From Lacunisphaera sp. (GTDB taxonomy: Bacteria > Verrucomicrobiota > Verrucomicrobiia > Opitutales > Opitutaceae), in assembly GCA_009695095.1 (NCBI GenBank), contig SIBQ01000005.1:1-64000 (forward strand): DNA of 64,000 nucleotides, given 5' to 3'. The translations under genes and the position numbers were made by a program. The first letter of the stretch is position 1. Every line of letters begins with the position of its first letter. The notes below the pieces were generated by a model, which saw nothing but the letters and a program-made list of their open reading frames with translations, had not been told where the DNA came from and ran no database searches. Of the stretch, positions 29,425-35,606 are shown one piece after another.

Positions 29425-29951
29425 CGATATCGTTTCGATCGGGATGGTTCAGCGGGTTGAGCCTTGGACCCCGATCTTGGAGGAATTGTCCAGGCAGCTG
29501 ATCTATCAGGCGTTGGTCAGGCCCGACCTTTGACAGTCCCGAAGAATGGATTTAATTTAAGCACGGCGACGGATCGACATGGGGGCCTCGGGGTAGTGAC
29601 AATATATTTTACGCATCACGCCAGTATGACGGGATCCGTTCAATTCTATCCGCACAAGGTTTTCGCTACCCACGCGGTAGCGAACGCTGCCTTAAGCTGT
29701 TTCGGCGTCGGCGAATAGCGCGTGTCCGCAAATTCATTTATGGACCGGCGAGAAATGGGTGCTCCCATGGGTTACTGCGCTTGGACCCAAGATCACGACT
29801 GTCTTGTCAACGTATCCTGCCTTCGCGTCGTCCTGTATGGCCGGTTCCATTTGCCGAGCCAAGCCGCCAATGCCTGGGGCGGGGAATTCCGGGCATCCAA
29901 CCGGACACAGCCGGGCCGAAAATGCCCAGCCAAGTCCGATCGATATTTGCT
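29425..29951. other. Gene-free stretch beside the amidohydrolase remnant
   Basis: No frame matches a family I know. Short open frames exist on the plus strand (29464-29718, 29722-29973) but lack start signals and recognisable composition. The lower GC content and broken frames fit debris left by the deletion that removed the amidohydrolase 5' part. Confidence 0.4.
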
Positions 29952-31640
29952 CTATGCCAACGGCAGCTCGTGAAGCTTTAGCTCAGGGTTTTTCTCAACG
30001 AAATAACGCATCGTCCAGTCATTGGGAAAGAGAACTACGGGGTGGTCAAACTTGTCGGTGCCGAAGCTGACACCGGTGGCGATGATGAACTTGGAATAGT
30101 CGAGCTTCCCCTTCGACAGGCTCACGGTCGCCGCCTCCGGCAGCTCTAGCCAGCGCAGCAGGGTCCAGGGCGTCGGGGTCAGGCGTGACTCGGCGCTGTA
30201 TTCGGCCTGCAGGCGCCATTGCACCACCTCAAATTGCAGCGGGCCGACCGCGGCGAGGAGCGTCGCCCCGGCGGGGCCGTTGCGCGCGGTGAAGAACTGG
30301 ACGACGCCTTCCTGCAGGAGCTGTTCTAGGCCGGCGCGGTATTTCTTGGCGTCGGCGGAGGTGGGATTTGAGATGTAGGTGAAGACCTCGGGCGGGAAGC
30401 GCGGGATTTCGTCATAGTTGATGCTCTTGTCGTCCGTGAGCGTGTCGCCGATGCCGAACTCGCTGTGGCCGACGAGGCCGATGACATCGCCCGGCCAGGC
30501 CACGTCCACGGTCTCGCGCTCCTGGCCGAAGAGCTTGTGCGAAGAGGAAAGGCGAACCGACTTGCCGGTGCGCTGGTGGGTGACGACCATGTCACGCTTG
30601 AATTTTCCGGAACACACGCGAAGGAAGGCGATGCGGTCGCGGTGCTTTGGGTCCATGTTGGCCTGGATCTTGAAGATGAAGCCGGAGAATTTCGGGTAAT
30701 CCACAGAGATGACACGTTTCTCTCGAACGGCGGCGACCTCGCCGCTGTCGTTGCGCAGCTGGGGCGCTGCGCCTCCAGAATCAATTGCAACTGCCGCCGA
30801 GCAGCGGGGCTGCGGAGGAACGCTGTCCCGCAAAAAACCATCCAGCAGCAGCTGGATGCCGAAGTTGCTCACGGCGGAACCGAAATAGACGGGAGTCTGC
30901 TGGCCGGCCTGCACCGCCCGGAGGTCGAACGGGTGGCCGGCGCCGTCGAGCATCGCCAGCTGTTCCTTCGCCTGAGCAAAGGCGAAATCATCGAGTTTCT
31001 CGCGGACGGCGGGATCGTCGAGCGAAGTGACTTGGACGGGGGCTTGGTATTTGCCGCCGGCCACGCGCTCAAAGAGGTAAACCTCGCGGGTGCGGCGGTC
31101 GAACACGCCCTTGAATGACGGGCCGTTGCCGAGCGGCCAGATGACGGGAGAGGACTGCAGGCCGAGGACATTCTCGAGTTCATCCAGCAGGTCGATCGGG
31201 CTGCGCGTGGGCCGGTCGCACTTGTTCATGTAAGTGAAGATCGGCACGCCGCGGCGGCGGCAAACCTCGAAGAGCTTGCGGGTCTGCGTCTCCACTCCCT
31301 TGGCGGCATCAATGACCATGAGGGCGGCGTCCACGGCGGTGAGCACGCGGTAGGTGTCCTCGGAAAAGTCCTTGTGGCCGGGGGTGTCGAGGAGGTTGAT
31401 CGCGCAACCGGCGTAATCGAACTGGAGGACGGTGGATGAAATGGAGATGCCGCGCTGTTTCTCGAGCTCCATCCAGTCGGAGGCGGTGGCGCGTTGGTTT
31501 TTACGGGCAGTGACAGAGCCGGCCAGGTGCAGAGCGTTACCGTAAAGGAGAAACTTCTCGGTCAGCGTCGTCTTGCCCGCATCGGGATGCGAGATGATCG
31601 CAAAGGTGCGACGGCGCGCGATTTCCTGGGCTGCGGTCAT
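29952..31640 (-). CDS. prfC: Peptide chain release factor 3
   Basis: A 562-residue translational GTPase that recycles RF1/RF2. The ATG at 31640 starts MTAAQEIARRRTFAIISHPD. G1 is SHPDAGKTTL, G2 lies in RGISISSTVLQFDY, G3 is DTPGHKDFSED and G4 is NKCDRPTRSP. Domain II with VDYPKFSGFIFKIQANMDPK and the C-terminal FEVVQWRLQAEY complete the RF3 pattern and separate it from EF-G. The leader carries an 8-unit heptad array at 31670-31725. Confidence 0.96.
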   Translation of the reverse strand: MTAAQEIARRRTFAIISHPDAGKTTLTEKFLLYGNALHLAGSVTARKNQRATASDWMELEKQRGISISSTVLQFDYAGCAINLLDTPGHKDFSEDTYRVLTAVDAALMVIDAAKGVETQTRKLFEVCRRRGVPIFTYMNKCDRPTRSPIDLLDELENVLGLQSSPVIWPLGNGPSFKGVFDRRTREVYLFERVAGGKYQAPVQVTSLDDPAVREKLDDFAFAQAKEQLAMLDGAGHPFDLRAVQAGQQTPVYFGSAVSNFGIQLLLDGFLRDSVPPQPRCSAAVAIDSGGAAPQLRNDSGEVAAVREKRVISVDYPKFSGFIFKIQANMDPKHRDRIAFLRVCSGKFKRDMVVTHQRTGKSVRLSSSHKLFGQERETVDVAWPGDVIGLVGHSEFGIGDTLTDDKSINYDEIPRFPPEVFTYISNPTSADAKKYRAGLEQLLQEGVVQFFTARNGPAGATLLAAVGPLQFEVVQWRLQAEYSAESRLTPTPWTLLRWLELPEAATVSLSKGKLDYSKFIIATGVSFGTDKFDHPVVLFPNDWTMRYFVEKNPELKLHELPLA

Positions 31641-31669
31641 GCGAGACAAATAGGGGTGAAAGTGAGAGG

Positions 31670-31725
31670 GAGCAGAGAACAGAGGACAGAAGACGGAGGA
31701 CGGATGATCGAGGACGGAATGGGAA
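31670..31725. repeat. Heptad array upstream of prfC
   Basis: Eight consecutive 7-base units can be read in phase: GAGCAGA, GAACAGA, GGACAGA, AGACGGA, GGACGGA, TGATCGA, GGACGGA, ATGGGAA. In the sense of prfC transcription they are pyrimidine-rich, as are the arrays before acnA and dgt. The array ends 29 bases before the prfC ATG. Confidence 0.7.
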
Positions 31726-31949
31726 CGGCTGCTGTGGTGAGGAGAGTTGGGCAGGAAACGGGTCCAGGAGGACAAGGTGAAGCCAAAACTCATACCGCCG
31801 TCGCCCCAACGCTTTGCACGCTTTCGTGTCAGTCACCAGCCGGGCCGCAGACTCCAGGTCGCTTATAGGCTACGAAGAACCCGTAACCAAGTTTAGGGGT
31901 TAGGCCGCATAGGCAGCGGGCGGGCATCGGTGTAGAGTGGGTCAACCTC

Positions 31950-32078
31950 ATGACTCCCCTGTCACTCCCATTCGCGCTCAGTGCCCTGAATCTAGCCTTC
32001 GGTCTTTACCTGTTCATCAACCACCGTCGCACTCCGGAAGGTTTTTGGGACAAGGCGGGGTTCCGCTCAAAAATCTAG
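31950..32078 (+). CDS. Possible 42-residue single-span membrane protein
   Basis: An ATG at 31950 opens MTPLSLPFALSALNLAFGLY and LFINHRRTPEGFWDKAGF before a TAG. One hydrophobic helix is followed by a basic patch, the inside-positive pattern of a small membrane protein. A GAGTGGG lies 11-17 bases upstream. It could equally be the leftover of a longer gene. No homology is claimed; the composition is the only evidence. Confidence 0.35.
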   Translation: MTPLSLPFALSALNLAFGLYLFINHRRTPEGFWDKAGFRSKI

Positions 32079-32143
32079 CTTCAGGTGAGCCGGACGCATC
32101 ATTTCTATGGTGCTCTCGCGGACCGCCAGGCGCAGTTCGTCCG

Positions 32144-32320
32144 TTAGCGTTCCAACGCCGACCAATACTGATTGGCGGCAGATCGCGCACCCACGGGCAA
32201 AGGCCCCATCATGCGGTCGTAGTTGGTTGGCGAGCTGACCAGAAGGTAGCGCGTGCCGGGCAGCAAACCGAATTTCTGAAGGAGTGGGGTGCCGGAATAG
32301 CCTGCCCCGGCGCTTTTATG
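32144..32320 (-). pseudogene. DUF3052-like protein, truncated fragment
   Basis: On the minus strand the frame reads AGYSGTPLLQKFGLLPGTRY and LLVSSPTNYDRMMGPLP, the recognisable N-terminus of DUF3052 proteins (GYSGTPLxKKLGI, a nucleotide-binding-like opening). After GPLPVG the similarity ends and the frame closes at 32144, where a full protein would continue about 100 residues. The start is obscured because the fragment lies back-to-back against the rlmI-like gene. Confidence 0.55.
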
Positions 32321-32338
32321 CTTCGTAAAGCGGGGCTC

Positions 32339-33535
32339 ATGGGCAATCGTGACTCCGTGTCTGTCTCCCTGAAACTCAAGCCCAATGCCATGTCCCGGGT
32401 GCTCGACGGCCACCCGTGGGTGTTTGGCAATGAATGCGAGGCGCTGTTGCCCGCCGCACACGATGGGGCGGTCGTGGAATGCCGCGACCGGGCCGGCCGG
32501 TTCCTCGGCAGCGGCATCTACAACAGCAAGTCACAGATTGTCTGGCGGCGGCTGAGCCGGGAACGCATCGAGCTTGACGAGGCGTATCTGCGCGCCGCGC
32601 TGACCAAAGCCATTGAACGGCGGAGCCCTTCGACAGGCTCAGGACAAGCGAACAGCTTCCAGCGCCTCGTCTGGTCCGAGTCGGACGACTTGCCGGGCGT
32701 GGTGGTGGACCAGTTTGGCGACACGCTGGTGGCCCAGATCCAGACGCTGGCGATGGAGAAACGCTCGACGAGCATCAGCGACCTGCTGGCGGAGCTGGCG
32801 AAGCCGGCCGAGATTATTTTCCGCAACGATGCGAACATCCGCAAGCTCGAGGGACTGCCGGTGGAGGTGCACACGCGTTCGGGCCAGCCGTGGGGGCCCC
32901 GCTGGGCCAAGATCGATGGCATTGAATACTGGCTCGACCTGCAGGGTGGGCAGAAGACCGGATTTTACCTCGACCAGCGGTTGCAGCACGCGGCTGTGGC
33001 CAAATACGCCCAAGGACGGCGCGTGCTCGATGCCTTTTGCAACCAGGGCTCCTTCGCACTGCATTGTGCGAAAGCCCACGCGGCGATGGTCCGCGGGCTT
33101 GACAGTGCGTTCGATGCGGTGGGGCAGGCGAAGAAGAATGCCGAGCGCAACGGGCTGGTGGCCGAGTTCGTGGCGGCCAATGTGTTCGACTGGTTCACCG
33201 CGCAGCGCGACGCTGCCCCGGCGTGGGATCTGATCATCCTCGACCCGCCGCCATTCGCGAAGTCGAAGTCGGCGCTGGAGAGCGCCCTGCGCGGTTACAA
33301 GGAATTGAACCTGCGGGCGATGAAGGCCCTGGCTCCCGGCGGGGTGCTCGCGACCTACTCCTGCTCGTATCACATGCAGGATCACGAACTGCGGACAGTG
33401 CTGGCGGGAGCGGCCGCGGACGCCAAGCGGCGCGTGCACGTGCTGGAATTCTGCCACCAGCCGCCCGACCACCCGGTGCTCGTGACGATGCCGGAGAGCG
33501 AATACCTCCGCGGCTATATCCTCCACGTGGAGTGA
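32339..33535 (+). CDS. rlmI: RlmI-type 23S rRNA cytosine methyltransferase
   Basis: A 398-residue class I SAM-dependent methyltransferase. An N-terminal PUA domain (LKLKPNAMSRVLDGHPWVFG, GSGIYNSKSQIVWRRLSRE) is followed by an EEHEE-type linker and the Rossmann domain: TGFYLDQRLQH, VLDAFCNQGSFALHCAKA, DLIILDPPPFAKSK and the catalytic-Cys-bearing TYSCSYHMQ. This matches RlmI/RlmO, which makes m5C in 23S rRNA. The ATG at 32339 is the nearest to the PUA start. Residues 96-104 (SPSTGSGQA) are encoded by a dispersed intergenic-type repeat inserted in frame. Confidence 0.85.
   Translation: MGNRDSVSVSLKLKPNAMSRVLDGHPWVFGNECEALLPAAHDGAVVECRDRAGRFLGSGIYNSKSQIVWRRLSRERIELDEAYLRAALTKAIERRSPSTGSGQANSFQRLVWSESDDLPGVVVDQFGDTLVAQIQTLAMEKRSTSISDLLAELAKPAEIIFRNDANIRKLEGLPVEVHTRSGQPWGPRWAKIDGIEYWLDLQGGQKTGFYLDQRLQHAAVAKYAQGRRVLDAFCNQGSFALHCAKAHAAMVRGLDSAFDAVGQAKKNAERNGLVAEFVAANVFDWFTAQRDAAPAWDLIILDPPPFAKSKSALESALRGYKELNLRAMKALAPGGVLATYSCSYHMQDHELRTVLAGAAADAKRRVHVLEFCHQPPDHPVLVTMPESEYLRGYILHVE
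32624..32650. repeat. Dispersed AGCCCTTCGACAGGCTCAGG motif in frame inside rlmI
   Basis: This exact motif is familiar as part of intergenic palindromes in many bacterial genomes. Here it lies in the reading frame and adds the residues SPSTGSGQA between the PUA domain and linker of the rlmI-like methyltransferase. Only one arm is present. The recognition of the motif is from general knowledge, not from a search. Confidence 0.55.
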
Positions 33536-33544
33536 TGGAGGGTC

Positions 33545-33562
33545 CGCGTCCCGGCGGACGCG
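33545..33562. terminator. Hairpin after rlmI, part of a palindromic repeat block
   Basis: CGCGTCC pairs perfectly with GGACGCG across CGGC, ten bases after the rlmI stop. It lies inside a larger folded block (33535-33630), in which TGGAGGG also pairs with a CCCTCCA near 33621. There is no T-tract; it may serve as a bidirectional terminator between two convergent genes. Confidence 0.45.
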
Positions 33563-33566
33563 ACTA

Positions 33567-34198
33567 TTAGCCTGGGGGGAGGGCTGGCCTCCCCGCCAGC
33601 CGCGACCCGTGGGGAGACAGGCCCTCCAATAAGACCGAGGCAGACCTGATCGAGCGCTGCGCCTGGACGCTGTCCAGGTTCCGGCGGGTGGCGCGGAGCT
33701 GCTCCAGTGCCACTTCCATTGCTGCCAGAGACTCGAGAGTCCGGGGGAGCTTCATTGACTCAAGCATCGCGCGCTCGTTTTCCATAAGGCTAACCCGAAT
33801 GGCGGCAACCGCGGCGAGATGGGAGGCGGAATTTCCGCCGAAAATGGCCGCGGCATTGGCGAGCTTAGGGCTGTTGATTGCCCGGTCCAGTTCACCCGTC
33901 TTCACCTTCTTGTTTTCCCGGCGATCTGCTTTTCCAGCTTGGTGATGACCTTGTCGAGCTCGCGGATGCGGCCGGAGCTGATTTGAACTCTCGGCAGAGT
34001 GATGACCGGCCCGACCGTTGGGATGGCGGTCTGGGGCGGCGGCGCTGCCAGCTCTGCGGCGCGGAGCAGAGGCGCGCAACCTGAGAGGAGAAAGGCGAAA
34101 AGGAATCGCGGGAGGTTGGCGCAGTTTACGGGGGCAGGCTGGGGGAAGCGCAAAGGCGGGCAAGAACAGACGCTCGCGAGAGGTGGAGGTTCCGGCAC
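33567..34198 (-). pseudogene. Lipoprotein-like coiled-coil protein with one frameshift
   Basis: The upstream frame reads a lipoprotein leader (PRFLFAFLLSGCAPLL, lipobox LLSGC) and then RVQISSGRIRELDKVITKLE and KQIAGKTRR before a stop near 33902. The adjacent frame continues without a break in sense: ENKKVKTGELDRAINSPKLA, IFGGNSASHLAAVAAIR, MENERAMLESMKLPRTLESL. One base missing in GGGAAAACAAG near 33915 would join them. The start in the first frame is unclear. Its last 20 codons run into the palindromic block after rlmI. Family not recognised. Confidence 0.5.
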
Positions 34199-34202
34199 TG
34201 AA

Positions 34203-34232
34203 AAGGCCGGGCGTCTCGCAACGTCCGGCCTT
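34203..34232 (-). terminator. Rho-independent terminator of eno
   Basis: On the minus strand AAGGCCGGACGT pairs with GCGCCCGGCCTT-like sequence over a 6-base loop (11 of 12 positions) and is followed directly by TTTT. It lies about 80 bases beyond the eno stop. This is the clearest intrinsic terminator in the window. Confidence 0.75.
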
Positions 34233-34310
34233 CCCAGTGTGTTGACGAAGCTCAGTGTTAGATGGACTTCGTAGGCGGCAGCGAAAGCAAGTCGCCGCCG
34301 GGCTGCAAGA

Positions 34311-35606
<1,296 letters not shown>

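Follow-up and report, generated by a model that had tools for sequence, protein, structure and literature searches.

The RlmI-like gene and the repeat copy within it

We examined a 64-kb window, i.e. the whole stretch of Lacunisphaera sp. DNA analysed here (64,000 nucleotides), in which a gene for an RlmI-like rRNA m5C methyltransferase (32339..33535, + strand) carries a REP-like insert, AGCCCTTCGACAGGCTCAGGACAAGCG (32624..32650, + strand). The 398-aa product presents the Pfam domains PUA_3 and Methyltrans_SAM, and its nearest models are those of RlmI-type 23S rRNA m5C methyltransferases. The scores lie below the NCBIfam equivalog cut-offs, with 239 bits against a cut-off of 712 for the RlmI model and 312 bits against 575 for the 23SC1962Mtase model, and the host is therefore named RlmI-like and not RlmI. 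The closest solved structure is 3c0k (yccW); we take yccW to be RlmI.

Read from 32624 in the frame of 32339-33535, AGCCCTTCGACAGGCTCAGG gives the codons AGC CCT TCG ACA GGC TCA GGA CAA GCG, that is SPSTGSGQA, residues 96-104 of the protein. In the AlphaFold model (26 sequences in the alignment, mean pLDDT 88.9), residues 96-102 form a loop and residues 103-105 a short helical turn, placed between helix 81-95 and strand 107-111, with pLDDT values below 50 at residues 98-101. SPSTGSGQA is thus predicted to form a low-confidence floppy loop, and the codons and the modelled loop agree with the sequence-only reading, which had the repeat coding for SPSTGSGQA in the linker of this enzyme. The exact ends of the insert are uncertain because the congeners that lack it are too diverged.

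The repeat was defined in the searches by the 15-base core CTTCGACAGGCTCAG (32628..32642, + strand). On either side lie the arms of an outer stem, GCC on the left (32625..32627, + strand) and GAC on the right (32643..32645, + strand), assigned from the sequence and from pair covariation over 136 sites. In the window copy, 32627-32643 and 32625-32645 are pairable and the pair between them, 32626-32644, is broken (C-A); the latter is C-G in the orthologue of the congener G019.

A 19-mer search allowing up to three mismatches found 2 matches in the window versus 0.02 expected. In the window genome (G000, 2.14 Mb) the exact core occurs twice, compared to none for the reversed control and about 0.008 expected with uniform bases, and six times with one mismatch, compared to one for the reversed control. 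The second exact core lies 20 nt downstream of what is presumably the rpoC stop codon, the gene being recognised by eye. The region just past a gene's stop codon is a usual location of REPs. The search for other copies in the genome, suggested by the sequence-only reading, was in this way answered by one further exact core, and the description of the sequence as a dispersed repeat is in agreement with this copy and with the copies found throughout the phylum (see below). No Rfam family was detected at the gathering threshold in 29500-34500.

Insertion sites compared with orthologues

We searched the 21 genomes of the genus group that contains Lacunisphaera, a member of the Opitutaceae; 20 of them have a full-length rlmI, and G012 has a fragment. 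The SPSTGSGQ DNA is present at the rlmI linker in three of the 20 (G000, G019 and G010) and absent from the other 17. It is placed between the helix-terminal RR and FxRLVWSESDDLPG, the helix ending in LR in G010. Thirteen of the 17 insert-free genes have 4-5 residues at the linker, e.g. AGMGD; unrelated sequence fills the linker in G009, G003 and G001 (8-12 residues) and, at greater length, in G013. The length of the linker varies without repeats; therefore the shared DNA, and not the length, is diagnostic. The sequence CTTCGACARGCTCA was absent from all 72 rlmI loci of named relatives. The proposal that a repeat had entered this coding region without breaking it is upheld by these alignments, and so is the insert itself, but its supposed restriction to one species is not, as two congeners also carry it.

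In G010, a second unit, GGGTTCGACAAGCTCACCGCAAGC (24 nt), is nested in frame in the first repeat, which shows that insertion took place a second time there. The halves of the split first repeat match G019, with nearly identical flanks, and the comparison with G019 reveals no target duplication at the nested unit beyond a 1-nt ambiguity. The closing pair of GGGTTCGACAAGCTCACCGCAAGC is G-C instead of C-G, so that the unit is not an exact core but a variant of it. A further copy elsewhere in the same G010 gene reads VLRQAQDG. G010 and G019 are sisters, with a support of 0.97 in the rlmI tree and 0.56 in a four-gene tree; the four-gene tree groups G000 with G011 (0.96), and its placement in the rlmI tree is unsupported. 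The G000 insert may derive either from an old event common to G019 and G010, with losses, or from an independent second hit. From the alignment, one old event would be favoured, because the position and length of the insert are identical.

Repeats of several families may be able to land in the rlmI linker and be tolerated there. As a separate observation, rlmI of G035, a genome of another genus, presents at the same linker (L057:1778-1792) a different palindromic-looking insert that encodes GPSCAKASEGTP; this palindrome (CAKASEG), sought in 979 loci, was found in G035 only.

Five gene sites were checked against orthologues and, as judged from these alignments, four of them (rlmI, CstA, UDP-glucose dehydrogenase and MetH; not prfC) are inserts. 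The carbon-starvation protein CstA of G009 is 39 nt longer than all 19 other aligned sequences (18 genomes). UDP-glucose dehydrogenase of G019 is 24 nt longer than 19 of the 20 others; that of G000 has a different expansion near the G019 insert site. For MetH, the genes with an LSLSKG stretch are 39 nt (G003) and 36 nt (G005) longer than eight empty congeners, and G007, G012, G015 and G017 have at the same site a related-looking repeat, CTGAGCGAAGCGAACGGG or close to it. The MetH site may have been hit repeatedly, or else may hold one old insert whose type has changed. The loci L944-L949 thus show two repeat variants at one position of metH in six congeners, and eight congeners show none.

The fifth site is a look-alike in prfC (30109..30127, + strand), which reads VSLSKG on the minus strand. 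It was considered as a second insert of the window and rejected, since congeners of the same length have similar residues with different codons. In the alignment (13 of 17 sequences found, G000 included), G016, G005 and G012 are equal in length, with similar residues and other codons, and nine sequences are 2-8 residues shorter than that of G000. The look-alike is most likely a chance match that arose in a variable loop by ordinary codon change; that it is an old decayed copy is much less likely. The sequence-only reading had taken the same residues encoded by unrelated nucleotides as the sign of a chance similarity; this is not what is found at rlmI, and it probably is at prfC. Such a near-perfect look-alike is a warning against pattern-only searches. 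The matches in two aminotransferases (L797 and L825) are probably due to chance as well.

Dispersal, structure and origin of the repeat

The repeat is dispersed throughout the phylum. In 387 phylum genomes the core was found 351 times, compared to 10 for the reversed control, with 82 genomes positive; in 57 relatives, G000 included, it was found 53 times, compared to once for the reversed control. The highest count per genome is 45 (G273), G000 having 2. Blastn searches of plasmids gave similar sequences in Novosphingobium, Moraxella, Methylobacterium and others (56 records, many with weak E-values), and 38 of the 40 plasmid matches listed have no listed gene beneath them in a gene table that is incomplete. 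The Sphingobium plasmid pTomMM7Aa has a pair of units in opposed orientation, CGTTCGGGCTGAGC...GGGCGAACG, and this inverted dimer lies within about 255 bp that are absent from pTomMM15a. Named phages gave 37 weak matches, the best with an E-value of about 1. For viral contigs the 19-base pattern alone was used, because with 14-base patterns the reversed control was equally numerous among the matches listed. Viral contigs are a possible route of the repeat between hosts.

We define the repeat by the core CTTCGACARGCTCAG in a unit of about 19-27 nt, with compensating outer stem pairs and an unpaired 3' tail. Stem and tail statistics were computed over 136 distinct sites. Two outer pairs covary: pair 1 is Watson-Crick at 113 of 136 sites versus 76.7 expected (CG 89, GC 18, AT 3, TA 3) and pair 2 at 111 versus 68.7 (CG 79, TA 26, GC 6), none of 2000 permutations being as high as observed for either. 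The covariation of pair 3 is weak (61 versus 52.5 expected), and farther out pair 6 alone is slightly raised (43 versus 33.4). At least two further stem pairs are present outside the core at 96 of the 136 sites. In the viral contigs, no compensation of the innermost pair was found at sites starting with G or A, where the 34 and 29 matches equal the expectation built into the test; random matches probably dominate these sets, because the reversed control is equally numerous among the matches listed.

The DNA folds of the window and G019 copies (z −1.4 and −1.2) have GAGCC/GGCTC as the best structure and not the covarying outer stem. A unit with an ATG stem (z 0.2) and the G010 unit (z 0.85) fold no better than shuffles, and the Sphingobium inverted dimer has a z of −7.2. 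The hairpin is therefore proposed from covariation, since the folding energies of single units give the outer stem no support, and these results slightly lowered our confidence in the main reading given below.

REPs are palindromic repeats of 20-40 bp with a high copy number, mainly intergenic and often just downstream of genes. Compared with this general description, the stem of the present repeat covaries and its copies number 351 over 387 genomes, but the copy number per genome is modest. CAGG is the most frequent tail following two stem bases (50 of 136 sites), and CCTG ends (tail CAGG) are counted at 51 of 136; tails in viral contigs tend to GAACGG, and Sphingobium copies toward GAACG. 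The GTAG superfamily of REPs has an unpaired GTAG-type tetranucleotide end, whereas such an end (GTAG, GCAG or GTGG adjoining the stem) is found at 5 of 136 sites and the window copy ends in CAAG. The CGTC superfamily combines a CGTC-type end with A-T first stem pairs; an end of this type (CGTC, TGTC or CCTC) occurs at 11 of 136 sites, including units with ATG/CAT stems (e.g. L817, L818 and L822), and the window copy does not have it. A distant link to CGTC REPs is possible.

We interpret 32624-32650, with a probability of roughly 0.87, as a copy of a REP-like palindromic repeat inserted in the linker of the RlmI-like methyltransferase, the protein surviving with an extra loop. The unit would have entered after helix 81-95, ahead of the strand that follows, and, because the change in length is a multiple of three and the frame has no stop, the enzyme would have survived with the extra SPSTGSGQA loop, which may be close to neutral for it. 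That a linker under low constraint evolved repeat-like codons by convergence is very improbable: this is the probable origin of the prfC look-alike in the same window and of the two aminotransferase matches, and the rlmI linker does tolerate other sequences of 8-12 residues, but G019 shares the same DNA and not merely the same peptide, and G010 has two nested units there and one at a second rlmI site. An origin as the end of an IS or MITE with target duplications, or as what is left of one, which would be consistent with the location of the Sphingobium repeat inside some 255 bp that a related plasmid lacks, is also improbable, though less so. The units (about 24 nt) occur by themselves, no longer flank is shared over the 136 sites and, although target duplications at the ends were sought in following up the sequence-only reading, none is visible at the three best-bounded sites (rlmI of G010, CstA and UDP-glucose dehydrogenase).

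An inserted REP-like unit would move as a single-stranded hairpin through some enzyme. The units occur singly and can nest, and together with the lack of visible duplication this resembles the single-strand hairpin insertion proposed for REPs. Mobilisation by a RAYT, a Y1 (HUH) tyrosine transposase that cuts the hairpin out and pastes it in as a single strand, is possible but doubtful. The covarying stem with its unpaired tail, the Sphingobium inverted dimer and the same lack of duplication are consistent with it, as are Y1 matches in 16 of the 21 genus genomes; against it, G000 has no Y1 transposase match, and copy number and Y1 hits are not correlated in the genus (rho 0.22, p 0.33). The flanks of 34 Y1 loci (15 genomes) are devoid of a 13-base core, even with one mismatch, and 40 Y1 regions (G273, G282 and G166; partly the same genes) gave two 13-base cores, of which one is exact and the other carries a mismatch. 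The 15-base core is absent from the 34 loci and the 40 overlapping regions. A RAYT link to the repeat was accordingly not borne out, no Y1 gene being flanked by the repeat in the loci and regions examined. Separately, at locus L065 of G019, where the core is absent in the 1.5-kb flanks, a high-scoring Y1 transposase match lies about 4 kb from rlmI.

According to the available text of Di Nocera et al. 2013, REPs are found inside genes of several species, with the GTAG REPs of Opitutus terrae as the foremost case, the insertions were suggested to be possibly neutral in flexible linkers or loops, and no transposase was found for CGTC REPs (PMC3733652). Like those intragenic REPs, the present repeat consists of short palindromes in many unrelated genes, in the same family (Opitutaceae), and like the CGTC REPs it has no transposase link; unlike the families described there, which have GTAG or CGTC ends (PMC3733652), it mostly has neither. 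Rickettsia palindromic elements (Ogata et al. 2000, 2002, as presented in PMC10969869 and PMC3733652) are likewise palindromic DNA placed in frame in unrelated genes, but they are about 150 bp as first reported and belong to Rickettsia (PMC10969869), whereas the units here are of about 24 nt and occur in several phyla; RPE-4 and RPE-6 have been equated with short CGTC REPs (PMC3733652). The short hairpins and occasional inverted dimers of REPINs and RAYT-REP systems, as described in the available sections of PMC3116915, PMC2817692 and PMC8266576, are similar to those seen here (the dimer in Sphingobium), but no transposase association was found for the present repeat.

Reading frames of the genic copies

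Five of the six reading frames of the repeat are open. Motif-spanning ORFs with a minimum length of 280 residues were collected over all 136 sites (65 entries) and tested with Pfam. Sites were retained if they had at least two extra stem pairs, at least 50 residues ahead of the motif and a Pfam domain within that ORF, which left 21 sites in Verrucomicrobiota. The Pfam domain does not cover the motif in every ORF counted, and L016 and L017 were counted as rlmI from the genus comparison, without a Pfam scan. We dropped L002 as an orthologue of L017, L024 and L842 with the motif at most 21 residues from the ORF start, and L008, L021, L793, L796, L797, L807, L825 and L831 with fewer than two extra stem pairs. 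A second frame of L023 was dropped although its ORF is also Pfam-positive, because orthologues place the insert in CstA there.

The genic copies are biased towards one frame. Sixteen of the 21 sites read PSTGSGQ (variants such as ASTGSAQ included), two LRQAQ, two LSLSKG, one PEPVEG and none PFDRLR, which gives a binomial probability of 4.7e-8 against 1/5 for sites that are partly dependent (four sulfatases, and two sites in one protein). Without the stem filter the share of PSTGSGQ is 18/29 (p 9e-7), and 15/20 when L788, the protein with two sites, is counted once. The orientation is biased too, with 18 of the 21 sites forward (p 7e-4), and 16 of these 18 forward copies are in one of the three phases (p 1.7e-6). 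A separate set was drawn from viral contigs (40 ORFs picked at random out of 62, the 19-base pattern fixing the two outer pairs); in it, PSTGSGQ was found in 10 of 15 Pfam-supported ORFs (1.1e-4), and Pfam support in 10 of 17 PSTGSGQ ORFs versus 5 of 23 others (Fisher 0.024).

The frame bias suggests selection for a linker-like peptide: genic copies would persist mainly as PSTGSGQ because this peptide is uncharged and linker-like. A mutational or target-site bias, without selection on the peptide, is an unlikely origin. As the orientation is also biased (18/21), a dependence of insertion on transcription or replication may play a part, but an orientation preference does not yield 16 of 18 forward copies in one phase; a codon-phase target preference could.

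Genic palindromes have been reported since the Rickettsia work, their mere tolerance being left open in the available text of PMC10969869 and PMC3733652. No reading-frame preference is reported in the available sections of PMC3733652; the present repeat has one. In the literature searched, which would not reveal sequences shown solely in figures or supplements, no mention of the repeat sequence or of its encoded peptides was found; as far as these texts go, REP insertion in genes is known in kind, and this repeat with its frame bias is not described.

With five frames open, the finding of about 70% of the copies in a single frame, in each of two separate samples, is a countable signature of peptide selection, and a widespread repeat puts the peptides SPSTGSGQ, LSLSKG, LRQAQ, PFDRLR and PEPVEG into unrelated proteins. 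We tentatively put forward, as less probable than its negation, a third, trans-phylum class of REPs, made of CTTCGACARGCTCAG with varying compensated outer pairs, that would be a recurrent source of flexible linkers with genic copies mostly in the P-S-T-G-S-G-Q frame.

Among the viral-contig ORFs, L186, L073, L183, L076 and L159 present phage capsid, portal and integrase domains together with the repeat in the PSTGSGQ frame.
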